Source: Citrus sinensis (taxonomy: Eukaryota > Streptophyta > Magnoliopsida > Sapindales > Rutaceae). Taken from it: a stretch of 64,000 nt of DNA. Every line of letters starts with the position of its first letter. The stretch's first letter is position 1. The DNA lies in contig NC_068556.1 of NCBI RefSeq assembly GCF_022201045.2, positions 19,759,501-19,823,500 on the forward strand. Reading direction: 5' to 3'. The notes under the pieces are model-generated. The model searched no databases, was not told the origin of the DNA, and was given only the letters and a program-made list of their open reading frames with translations. This document shows positions 30,955-63,399 of this stretch, in pieces. The translations under genes were made by a program, and so were the position numbers.

Positions 30955-31200
30955 CCTTTGCTGCCTGTGACCTTGTGTTAGTAGGTTTATTTCAAAGGCA
31001 AGAGTTGTACTTTTTAATCAATGAATATAATAAGAATTAATATACGCATAAGAAGCTGAGATTTTTCCCATCACAAAGATATAATTGCTATAGAGTTGGT
31101 CCATAAAGTACATATGTGCTTGCTTTTAAAGAGAGTCAAAATACTAAAGAAATTAAAGGTTGATAGAGTGCCGACAAAAACAAGTTAATAACACCAGATT

Positions 31201-31475: not shown

Positions 31476-32312
31476 CTCAATTTTCTCTGTCTTTTTAATA
31501 TTTTTCAATTAACATATTAAATCCAGCCGCCTAATCATACATTGTTTGTATTAACATTCTATCATATTTTTTTTTCTTCACGTGGTCTAAAGTATCATGG
31601 CTTTTCAAAGAGTTGTTCAATTGCAAACAGGTGGGGTGTGACATGCAATAATAGATCCAAGGGATTCTGAGTAAGTGAATGAATCAACAACTTGCTCTTA
31701 TTGGATTTTCTTCAAGTGAAGTTGGGATTGTACATTCACTATATCCTCACAGAGGCGAAACCAAAGATAATTGTTCAATGAATTAATTACTTAACAGGGA
31801 GAAGATGTTTTCAAAACAAATACCGAAATATATTAATCATTTTAAAGGGTTTCAATCACTTTAACAGTGAGAGAGGTTTCCAAAATCAAATACGTTAATC
31901 ATTACAAGCGCAGCATCAGAACATACGAAAAGACAAACAAATTTTGGCGGCCCGCTAGCAAATCGCTAAGGGAATCACGAGGTTGCCCAAACACCACTAG
32001 AGTACTAACACAATCCAAAAGGCCAAAAAAACACACACGTCTTTTATTTTGCAACCATTGAAGAGCCCACATATGATAAAAGATGTTTTGTCGCTCTACT
32101 CCGACAATATTTCGTTGCGTATCCGTGACAGTATCTAAAATTTTGGACCGTAGAGAAATTTTCTTCGCCAAAAAAAAAATAATAATAATAACAAATTTAA
32201 AAGAAAATTACTTTTATGTCCTCCAAGAAACTAACGTCATCCATGAAGAATAACTATTAAATTTGTGTTTCGCTAAGCGAATTGGGGCTCGGTGCAGAGA
32301 AACGGTAGAAGA
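31476..32312. other. Spacer upstream of the telomerase RNA candidate
   Basis: No gene was recognised. Base composition shifts from AT-rich to mixed near 32270, where the RNA gene promoter begins. Confidence 0.4.
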
Positions 32313-32323
32313 ATCCCACATCG
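32313..32323 (+). promoter_or_regulatory. Upstream Sequence Element (USE) of a plant small-RNA promoter
   Basis: atcccacatcg matches the plant snRNA-type consensus RTCCCACATCG at all 11 positions. It is used by U-snRNA, 7SL, MRP and telomerase RNA genes. Confidence 0.9.
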
Positions 32324-32346
32324 ATAGATTTATGTGTTTGTACATT

Positions 32347-32354
32347 TTTTATTA
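32347..32354 (+). promoter_or_regulatory. TATA-like box at Pol III spacing
   Basis: ttttatta starts 23 bp after the end of the USE. In plants that spacing marks Pol III type 3 promoters; Pol II snRNA genes have about 10 bp more. It predicts a start near 32376. Confidence 0.6.
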
Positions 32355-32375
32355 GGAGAGTGAGGAAGCGAGCGA

Positions 32376-32633
32376 AGCATGCTGGGGGGTGTGGGGTTTG
32401 GAAATTGCACGTGCCTTTATTAAACCCTAAACCCTTCCCTTAGCGGGCAATTTGTGGGGTCTTTGTCCGGTGTTTCCCCCGTGCGGTTTAAAAAAGAAAC
32501 GTCGACGCCCGGCGCGTGTGATTTCCAAAGTCGACGACATTTGCCCCCGAGAGGTTGTTGAGGGGGTGAGCTGCCGGCACCTGATAGGTGTCTCGCGGTT
32601 ACTGGTTATCCTCGCCTCTCGAGCACCCTTATT
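32376..32633 (+). ncRNA. TR: Telomerase RNA (TR) candidate
   Basis: A GC-richer block of about 258 nt follows a perfect USE and TATA-like box and ends in a T5 terminator. At 32421-32434 it contains taaaccctaaaccc, two exact complements of the plant telomere repeat TTTAGGG, the expected template. A 7-bp helix (aaattgc 32402-32408 with gcaattt 32447-32453) brackets the template. gggtgt (32387-32392) can pair with gcaccc (32623-32628), closing 5' to 3' end. Further stems are gtcgac/gtcgac (32501, 32530) and a 7-bp hairpin at 32576-32592. Published plant TRs are Pol III transcripts of roughly this length with this promoter type. The RNA would be the template subunit of telomerase beside TERT. The exact start is uncertain by a few bases. 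No protein is encoded. Confidence 0.85.
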
Positions 32634-32636
32634 TTT
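32632..32636 (+). terminator. Pol III T5 terminator of the TR candidate
   Basis: Five T on the coding strand lie directly after the 3' pairing arm. Confidence 0.75.
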
Positions 32637-32976
32637 AATTTAATTTAATCCATATCTTAAAGTGATTTTTTTAACCACATAAGAGATATGACGACAAAAT
32701 TTTATCAACTGATCCCATTAAGAACATCTTAGCAGACTGCTTGAATGCTTGGTGTTACTTCAAGTAATAAGACAAAATTTTATCAACTAATACCATTAAG
32801 AACATATTTATTTTGACAACATTATCATTATTATTATTATTATTATTATTTGTGTTTATGGATTTGAATATTTGATTGAATTTGCCAACAATCTACCCTG
32901 AATTGACTAAATTTCCAAATTGATACCAAAACATGCCCGTACAAGCTTCTAGTTCCAAAAATATAACCTTGAAATA

Positions 32977-38794: not shown

Positions 38795-41700
38795 GAAGCA
38801 GTAAATAGCTGTAACAAGGGCACCAACAAATTCAGCTGAAATTTCAAATTTGGATATCGGCAATAAACAATTGCATGTTCATGTTTTAACAGGTATTTGC
38901 CTTGCCTCTTTGTTTGTTATCTGGGATTTGGGTAATAATTCCAAACTAAAATTGGTGGCCTATATCAATCCATTGAGTTCTTTTTTTTTTAAATTCAATT
39001 TATTAAACAGAAACAGAATATTTTATTAAAATGAACAGAAAAGTCATATAAAAGCAAACCAGATAACCAGAGGTCCACAAGGGAAATAAAAACAGCCTTA
39101 TAAGCTTCCTGTGGGCTATACAAAACGAAAACAGCATATTCATACCCCAAACAGTATACTAGTCCCAAAACTTACAAAACCTAGAGGAGGTCCATTAAAC
39201 AATATTAACTGAAGATCCATCCCCAATTGAGATTGATGAAAAAGAGAAAATTGTCTTCAAAATCCTTAGAGACTGAGACTCAAAGAGAAGCACAAGAATG
39301 ATTTTGTCCCATGTGATGTGGGACAAGTAGAGTTGCAGTTTAATTTATTTTTCTTGCTTAATTACGATTTGCTTTACATTTTCTTGTTAAAATCATATTC
39401 CTGCTCTTGTAAGGAATCATAAGTTTATTAGGTTTATGATCAATTACTATTAGTATAAATAGGCTTGTTATTCTAGTTTATTTCACCAATTCATTTAATT
39501 CTCAACATCTATTATCGCTTTCACACTATGTCACCACAGCCAGTTTTCATCCTCTTCCTTGTCTTATTAAAAAATAGACTATTTCTTTCTTGCCACAACA
39601 TCCCTAAAAAAGTAAGGACTGCACATTTCCATTAAATTCATTTCGTTTCTTATATTCTTTAAACCACCAATCCTTAGAAGTCATTTGCTTGTCCCTTTCA
39701 AACACCATAATCAAGTCTTAGGAGCTGATTTCTGCTTGTTTCTTCTACTCCATTATCTTTCTTCTAAGACTGCAATTTCCCTACTAAAACACTCATTTTT
39801 GCTATATCATTCTCCTTAATTGCCACCTATACTTTGCTATTCAATAAACAACAGCTTTGAATGCTCAATCTTAAACTAATAGGTAAAGGCTGATTGAATG
39901 ATTGTATATAAACTCTTAACACCCTTTTATGTGTAAGGTTTAATTTATTTAACAAGATAGGCATGTTTATCCAAAGCAACCATATACATGGATCGAAACA
40001 CACGCTAAACTTGTTATATATTGTCATGTGATTAATAGAATGAGGGACTCAAGCACAAAACCACAATGTCAACCTCCATCTAACATCTTCGTGTGAAATA
40101 GCAAAAGCATACCACAATATGGACATCAATAGCAAATGAAACAAATCATGTATTGCATAAAAGGGCCAATAATAGATCAAGATTCAACATAACCTTTATC
40201 TACATCCATAAGTAAAACAAACATCCATCAAACAGTAAATTTATGAAAAAGATACAGGAATACAAAACTGAAGTTTTGAACACTCTATGGCGTAGAACAA
40301 AAGGCTTAATAGAAATAAAGAACTATAGAAAGAAATGGGGATATTTTGAAAGCAAAAGAGAAGAAACCAGGAAACCCACTAAGGATCAATTTAGGATTGA
40401 TCCTTGATCAAATAAATTGCTTTCGCAGTGTGGATAAAATAAGCTACTAATTAACAAGCAGCTTGGTGTTTGGAAAATTGTGTCATTGCAATTGCTGTGA
40501 GTTTGAAAGCAAAATACATGCATTTAATAAATTATTTAGAAATGCATTTTTTTCTTTTTAAAAGACAAAAAACTACATAAAATCATGGTTAGCTTTCACA
40601 TGAAATTATTCAAAGTTTACAGAAAATTTATGTAATCATATGCAAGTCTTATTGATTTTTATAATAAAAAATAAAAGTAAAATACAAAAAATATGAACTT
40701 ACTGAACCAAAACTTTGATATTGGAGAGAATGTATATTAGTCCTGGTAGTAATTTGATTGTGGCAATAATATCATATCTAATGGTTTATATATTTGGGTT
40801 TATGGAAAAATAAGACATAATTGCCTTTCTATTAAAATATTAAGAAAATAATAGAAACTTTAAAAATGTTTAGTGACTTATTTAATAAGCTACTTTTAAG
40901 AAGTGACCTTCTACTTACTTTTAAAAGTTACTATCAAAATGAAGAAAATTACAAAATAAATAATTTTTACAAAATTTTCCAAATAATATTTTTGTCAAAA
41001 ATTACTCAATAAGCAACTTATGGAGTTTCAACCTCAATCCCAAACAGGGCTAAGAATTCATATAGAAAAAGAGAATATTCAAAATTCAATTCATTCATGC
41101 TATCAACATATTCCTTCCAATTAGCAATGGTGATTAATTCATGTCGCAACACAACAAAGATACCAACAAATCTTTAAATCAAATTCATAAAAAGAATGTA
41201 GACACATGATGAAGTCATGATAGCATCTAGAATTCCCAATGAAAAGTGGGTTGGTAAAATTAGACTTATTTCAAGATAGAATAATAGAAGACTTCCCAAG
41301 TAATATCCCAATATTCTCATCTTAAGTATTGATGTAGCATTCATTATTGATTGATCAATTTCATAACTTGTGAAATTACTTATTATTCCATCCCATCATC
41401 TAATGGATGGATGGCACCCCACTTAGGATTGTAAAGGTTAGAAACACACTTAGAAAGTGTAGAATCGCTCTTTAAGATTAAAGTAATAACTAAAAGAAAA
41501 AAATAAAATTCATAATAACCAAAACCAAATAAGATTAAACAACTTAAGATGAAAATAACTAGATTAAAGAATTTTAGCAATTCAACACAAAGGAGCATCT
41601 TACCCAACCCAAAAATACAAAACACCATTAGAAAAGGTTCTACAACCTCTCTTACATTACCTTTTTTACTCATTGCAAAAGATCAAAATTAAAATCAAAT

Positions 41701-63111: not shown

Positions 63112-63399
63112 ATGAGCCATCTCATCAATAAAATAATTTTGGCGGCTCTTGTCATTTTTCTTGCCCATACTCCGCTGCCATGCAAAGCTAGTAGGGTTTT
63201 GCCTGGAGAGGTTCTGATATTACAGTCTCTTCAGAAGGGTCCTGTAACTCCTCCGGGCGGTTCCGGCTGCACATTCATTCCCGGAAACGGCGGCTCCGGC
63301 TGTCCCGTCAAGGAAATGAACGTTGCCGGTCGTGCTTTGCCTCGTCCCACCGCGTATCCTCATCTCTCGGTCCCTTTTGGCATTGCTACCAAGCAGTAA
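63112..63399 (+). CDS. Secreted CTNIP/SCREW-type peptide precursor
   Basis: This single-exon frame of 95 aa has a clear signal peptide (hydrophobic 8-20, cleavage likely after CKA at about 26) and no later membrane segment. The core reads GSGCTFIPGNGGSGCPVKEM. It has the CT-x-IP motif and two cysteines 12 residues apart, the layout of the CTNIP/SCREW phytocytokines. In Arabidopsis those peptides are sensed by the receptor kinase HSL3/NUT and affect immunity, water loss and growth. The canonical Asn of CTNIP is Phe here. About 25 residues follow the second cysteine, so C-terminal trimming may occur. A TATA-like box lies about 70 bases upstream. The assignment rests on motif recognition only; an unrelated Cys-containing peptide is possible. 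Confidence 0.78.
   Translation: MSHLINKIILAALVIFLAHTPLPCKASRVLPGEVLILQSLQKGPVTPPGGSGCTFIPGNGGSGCPVKEMNVAGRALPRPTAYPHLSVPFGIATKQ

Follow-up and report, generated by a model that had tools for sequence, protein, structure and literature searches.

Telomerase is the enzyme that rebuilds chromosome ends, and telomerase RNA (TR) is its RNA part. The upstream sequence element (USE) is bound by SNAPc in known genes. The land-plant TR family has been described from 75 sequences (PMC6765143). The Arabidopsis TR (AtTR; GenBank AB646770 according to PMC6765143) is the same RNA as the AtR8 lncRNA (PMC6765143, PMC7145096) and is 262 nt long (PMC11093817). Plant USEs (consensus RTCCCACATCG) are located near -70 and TATA boxes near -30, the distance between the two elements being one helical turn shorter in U6 and U3 genes than in Pol II genes (PMC9845283), and reporter tests in dicots point to a TATA consensus that is looser than the USE consensus (PMC12268498). 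In other lineages, the TRs of ciliates and hymenopterans are likewise Pol III type 3 RNAs with a template and a pseudoknot core closed by a P1c-type stem (PMC9841428, PMC12133305); their likeness to the candidate described here is one of layout.

We analyzed a 64,000-nt stretch of the Citrus sinensis genome (hereafter the window; C1:19759501-19823500 in a 299.7-Mb assembly of 11 contigs) and found that positions 32313-32636 almost certainly represent the Citrus TR gene. Within 324 bp, the locus contains a USE, a TATA-like box, a template for TTTAGGG and a run of five T residues (T5), ahead of which the predicted transcript has no other T run (Table 1). The initial annotation had proposed a plant TR gene at this place, a reading that is supported by the U6 promoter geometry, the telomere sequence, the uniqueness in the assembly and the homology to Arabidopsis primers, and the domain order along the candidate RNA also fits. 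The promoter geometry, the template, the telomere sequence, the uniqueness, the local similarity to AtTR and the helices matching the known layout were all obtained directly. With the land-plant family as described in PMC6765143, the locus shares the order of USE, TATA box, 5' G-rich region, template, C-rich region and terminator, and no difference from that description was found in these elements. The gene type is already known from other plants, and the Citrus locus is a well-conserved example of it. It may already be included in the supplement of an earlier plant TR survey; the word ‘Citrus’ does not occur in the main text of PMC6765143, where the TR list forms supplementary Table S3, and no paper on a Citrus telomerase RNA was recognized by title among the matches listed.

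Table 1. Features of the candidate Citrus TR locus (positions within the window)
Feature	Position	Strand	Basis and remarks
USE ATCCCACATCG	32313-32323	+	identical to the consensus RTCCCACATCG; no other exact match in the window
TATA-like box TTTATTAGGA	32348-32357	+	24 nt after the end of the USE, as for the TATA-like boxes of the five top-scoring U6 genes; non-canonical
Predicted TR transcript	32377-32636	+	about 259 nt with T5 at its end; U6 geometry; start uncertain, 32369-32379
5' G-rich region	32385-32395	+	GGGGTGTGGG at 32386-32395 identical to part of the AtTR forward primer
Core-closing stem (P1c-type), 5' strand	32397-32415	+	19 unbroken pairs (3 G-U) with 32511-32529; probability 0.78-1.0
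Template region UAAACCCUAAACCCU	32421-32435	+	15 nt, just above two telomere repeats; sequence, telomeres TTTAGGG
Pseudoknot stem P2, 5' strand (GUGGGG)	32454-32459	+	can pair with 32477-32482; compare AtTR G86, G88-G90
Pseudoknot stem P3, 5' strand	32468-32476	+	nine possible pairs with 32496-32504; nested-ensemble probability 0.33-0.63
Pseudoknot stem P2, 3' strand	32477-32482	+	nested-ensemble probability 0, in a model that has to omit one pseudoknot stem
A-rich pseudoknot loop CGGUUUAAAAAA	32484-32495	+	faces the U-rich loop UCUUUGUC, 32460-32467
Pseudoknot stem P3, 3' strand GAAACGUCG	32496-32504	+	compare AtTR C129, G130, G133
Core-closing stem, 3' strand	32511-32529	+	pairs with 32397-32415
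C-rich region	32543-32548	+	paired with the 5' G-rich region (32385-32390) in the predicted fold
P4-P5-P6 stacked stem	32548-32621	+	predicted fold; P4 is 32548-32555/32614-32621
AtTR reverse-primer segment	32591-32613	+	18/21 letters, three mismatches and two one-base gaps, to the reverse complement of the primer
Pol III terminator T5	32632-32636	+	only T run of at least 4 downstream of the promoter within 32340-32660

Sequence context, promoter and predicted transcript ends

The GC-rich block noticed initially was recovered, with a GC fraction of 0.547 against 0.343 in the window. This value is reached by 26 of 6374 tiles of 267 nt, 23 of which are located in a gene for an FHA protein, two at the candidate TR locus and one at position 63141. 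The accompanying claim that the block contains no coding frame holds only loosely, with stop-free stretches of 68 codons on the plus strand and 69 codons on the minus strand.

Eight translated stretches of the window were compared with Pfam, giving one DUF247 protein, one FHA-domain protein, two cellulose-synthase-like exons and four stretches with no family. Over its full length as query, the FHA protein shares 98% identity with a protein of Citrus x aurantiifolia. An apparent tandem cluster of cellulose-synthase-like genes occupies positions 5810-31017 on the minus strand, with similar exon pieces recognized by eye in the list of open reading frames near 6, 9, 12, 14, 16.5, 27 and 30.5 kb; those at 27 and 30.5 kb were confirmed with Pfam.

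The U6 genes of the same genome served as yardstick for the promoter. There are 24 U6 matches, five of which (L037-L041) score at least 100 bits. In all five, the USE starts at -64 and a TATA-like box follows 24 nt after the USE, the USE core being exact in four genes and carrying a single mismatch in one. Among the 19 weaker matches, the best USE-like site never falls at -64; closest in kind is a match with a one-mismatch USE at -58 (L046). The five strong matches also offer a set of native Pol III promoters that is ready to use.

The perfect 11-bp USE of the initial annotation is indeed present at the candidate locus. When up to two mismatches are allowed, eight places in the window match the consensus, one of them exactly, compared to 11.6 expected by chance, and the loose motif alone therefore means nothing. 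A USE-like sequence with one mismatch (GTCCCACATCA) is also located at 39314-39324 on the minus strand of the window, where no Rfam family reaches its gathering score. The TATA-like box was likewise recovered, but its distance from the USE had been given as 23 bp and amounts to 24 nt. Since the box stands in the register of the five U6 genes, its distance from the USE is that of a Pol III promoter. In Mimulus TRs, the TATA box is reported to lie 28-30 bp downstream of TCCCACAT (PMC12169523), compared to 26 nt between TCCCACAT and the box in the Citrus candidate, a comparison in which the Mimulus measuring convention may differ.

The U6 geometry (start of the USE plus 64) places the first transcribed nucleotide of the candidate at about 32378. 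The numbering of AtTR would place it near 32369-32372; we prefer the U6 geometry. The position of the start is corrected to about 32377-32379. The T5 at the predicted end was found where expected. One other run of at least four T residues occurs within 32340-32660 (32345-32350), inside the promoter, and the terminator is embedded in an AT-rich stretch.

Template, telomeres and uniqueness in the assembly

The two TAAACCC units described initially are present as TAAACCCTAAACCC at 32421-32434. The repeat match extends over 15 nt (TAAACCCTAAACCCT), which fits the TTTAGGG telomere of the host and exceeds one repeat; it is longer than the AtTR template, CTAAACCCT (PMC6765143). TTTAGGG arrays were found on nine of the 22 contig ends, one of which (L020) has just eight units by simple count. 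A simple parser recognized 578 exact TTTAGGG units among 1073 loosely telomere-like units in the nine 3-kb end stretches, a total that takes in chance short units such as TGG (92). The minor units over the nine ends include TTTTAGGG (n = 47) and TTTGGGG (n = 35), and these variants are seen, among others, at the contig ends L016, L018, L026, L028 and L031. They could reflect template slippage, old subterminal repeats or assembly errors.

Loose matches to CTAAACCCTAAAC occur four times in the window against 1.9 expected, and the template motif alone is therefore not decisive. The picture is different for the combination: an exact USE followed, after 85-115 nt, by an exact template is found at one place in the 299.7 Mb, and neither the reverse strand nor the backwards control gave a match. 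A shorter USE-template pattern, also searched for exact matches in the 299.7 Mb, likewise gave one match, none on the reverse strand and none in the control. Single motifs therefore carry little weight; the proof lies in their combination.

These counts bear on a first alternative, in which the template motif would be a telo-box (AAACCCTAA) belonging to the 5'-flanking region of a neighboring Pol II gene, and the USE a chance match. Telomere-like motifs are common in plant promoters (PMC6765143), a cellulose-synthase-like gene on the minus strand starts about 1.3 kb away (end of the open reading frame at 31017), and the USE and the template motif, taken singly and loosely, are not above chance in the window. 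This alternative, however, leaves unexplained why the USE, the TATA box in register, T5, the GC-rich structured block, the long stem, P4-P6 and the primer similarity follow each other in order within 324 bp, and why the exact USE-template combination is found just once in the genome. We consider it very improbable and retain the TR gene as the interpretation of the locus.

The uniqueness of the locus also bears on whether it might be a TR paralogue that is silent or has decayed, the working gene being located in another place. TR paralogues and relocation are known in plants from Mimulus (PMC12169523), and the assembly has gaps (contig C6 starts with 3000 N) and seemingly contains one copy of each chromosome. 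Against this stand the intact promoter, template, stems and terminator and the lack of any other match in the 299.7 Mb. In particular, a search of the assembly with the DNA of 32300-32640, in which only the best candidates are scored and withheld stretches appear as N, revealed no second copy at E-values up to 10. The exact patterns and this DNA search thus gave no better TR locus in the same genome; such a locus is among the findings that the initial annotation had named as speaking against it. It is exceedingly unlikely that the candidate is such a paralogue, and we continue to treat it as the working TR gene.

Public contigs were also scanned for other TRs. The USE-template pattern gave one place on a viral contig and five places in prokaryote genomes, and a G-rich-template pattern gave five places on viral contigs. 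All 11 places, examined by eye over about 340 nt each, lack the TR layout, as expected in the absence of plants. The scans for other plant TRs gave no plasmid match.

Similarity to AtTR and predicted RNA structure

The comparison with AtTR makes use of two primer segments, taken from the AtR8 cloning primers printed in PMC7151572 after removal of the presumed cloning tails, and of published base numbers. The forward primer matches the candidate over 10 consecutive bases of its 21, at 32386-32395. The match to the reverse primer lies close to the 3' end (Table 1). No better match to either primer exists on the plus strand of the 64 kb; on the minus strand, one place gives the forward primer alone a slightly higher score (22 vs 20). 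Of 20,000 dinucleotide-shuffled versions of the 281-nt region, 671 reached the forward score, 284 the reverse score and six both, whatever the order and spacing. Of the 3186 tiles in the window, 20 reach the forward score, 13 the reverse score and only one reaches both, which is the candidate TR locus.

The similarity to AtTR extends to the general organization. Like AtTR, the candidate would be a USE-driven Pol III gene of about 260 nt; it has GGGGTGTGGG in a 5' G-rich segment, a TTTAGGG template, a possible P2/P3 pseudoknot, a predicted P4 stem near the 3' end and a matching 3' segment. P4 is formed by nt 179-187/241-249 in AtTR (PMC11093817) and would be formed by nt 171-178/237-244 in the Citrus candidate, if the start lies at 32378.

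The primer matches also weigh on a second alternative, namely that the locus encodes another Pol III type 3 RNA (a U-snRNA, MRP, SRP, SINE or an unknown RNA) that carries the telomere motif by chance. The USE is common to several small RNA genes (PMC12133305) and would suit such an RNA as well, but both Arabidopsis TR primer segments match the candidate, and no relevant Rfam match was obtained at either the gathering or a relaxed threshold. At the gathering threshold, the window has no match at all in Rfam 15; at the relaxed threshold, two short stretches gave four and three weak matches, all below the gathering scores and none of them relevant. To our knowledge, Rfam contains no plant TR family, and the missing Rfam match is therefore weak evidence either way. 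Since no other copy was found in the assembly, the locus is not a SINE. An RNA of another kind is thus extremely improbable, and the structural features below are described for a TR.

The main helix, a stem of 19 unbroken pairs, has the template and the possible pseudoknot inside it, with 5 nt between its 5' strand and the template. Among helices with loops of 60-150 nt, none on the plus strand of the window is longer; the minus strand contains one longer helix with 20 pairs and four G/C in its 5' arm. The 19-bp stem corresponds to P1c, the stem that closes the TR core (PMC9841428) and that supplements the template boundary in angiosperms (PMC12133305). The initial annotation had instead proposed a 7-bp helix around the template (AAATTGC at 32402-32408 with GCAATTT at 32447-32453). 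This helix can indeed be drawn, but it competes with the 19-bp helix for a common 5' strand and is the weaker of the two. It was dropped in favor of the 19-bp helix and is probably not the functional element, because the unbroken 19-bp helix encloses both the template and the pseudoknot.

Downstream of the template, an H-type pseudoknot consisting of P2 and P3 is possible. Mutations that break P2 (G86, G88-G90) or P3 (C129, G130, G133) have been described in Arabidopsis (PMC11093817), and the counterparts of these bases in Citrus are located at 32454-32458 and 32500-32504, respectively, with both the pseudoknot rules and the Arabidopsis numbering having been applied after the sequence had been seen. 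An equally good pseudoknot was found in seven of 1000 shuffles, a statistic that is supporting only, as the rules were set after the layout had been seen.

The closing pairing of the extreme 5' and 3' ends described initially was set aside, as the G-rich 5' region is mainly paired with the C-rich block before P4 in the predicted fold. The P4-P6 region (32546-32623) has a minimum free energy of -36.3 kcal/mol (z = -3.27), and none of 200 shuffles was as stable. The corresponding values are z = -2.12 with seven of 200 shuffles for the whole 267 nt and z = -2.24 with three of 200 for the core. P4 itself has a probability of 0.30-0.61 in the nested fold of the whole RNA.

Proposed mechanism and implications

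From these features we infer transcription, protein binding, a template boundary and a catalytic role for the candidate RNA. RNA polymerase III would be recruited by SNAPc at the USE together with TBP at the TATA-like box, the two elements being separated by 24 nt. It would start near 32378 and stop in the T5 at 32632-32636, yielding an RNA of about 259 nt. The 19-bp stem would close a core that contains the template and the H-type P2/P3 pseudoknot, followed by P4-P5-P6. With its end 5 nt away from the template, the stem can mark the stop of copying. TERT, which is known to bind the pseudoknot and P4 in Arabidopsis, would do so here as well and copy the template into TTTAGGG repeats.

The folding results also suggest, far more tentatively, how the template might be controlled. 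In nested folding, the template ACCCUA (32424-32429) pairs with UGGGGU (32455-32460), the 5' strand of P2. The template and the P2 partner (32477-32482) compete for this one strand, so that hiding of the template and formation of P2 are mutually exclusive. A structure with an open template and with P1, P3 and P4 formed has an energy of -97.2 compared to a minimum of -102.3, a cost of 5.1 kcal/mol before any gain from P2 or protein. The RNA might therefore act as a built-in switch between a closed form (template hidden, no P2) and an open form (pseudoknot formed, template free), in which binding of TERT to the pseudoknot would expose the template. We regard this switch, a prediction resting on one sequence, as possible but rather unlikely. 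According to a review, the moss TR is mainly present in a closed form in vivo (PMC12133305). If the switch exists, the template, being slightly longer than two repeats, would also lengthen the annealing register.

The Citrus locus does not alter the current view of plant TRs. Nevertheless, an exact position in a chromosome-scale assembly is now available for the TR gene of a major fruit-crop genus, at a locus that protein-based annotation would miss, and a precise candidate transcript is given that can be sought in RNA reads. In addition, the locus suggests a testable way in which a plant TR may hide and expose its template.
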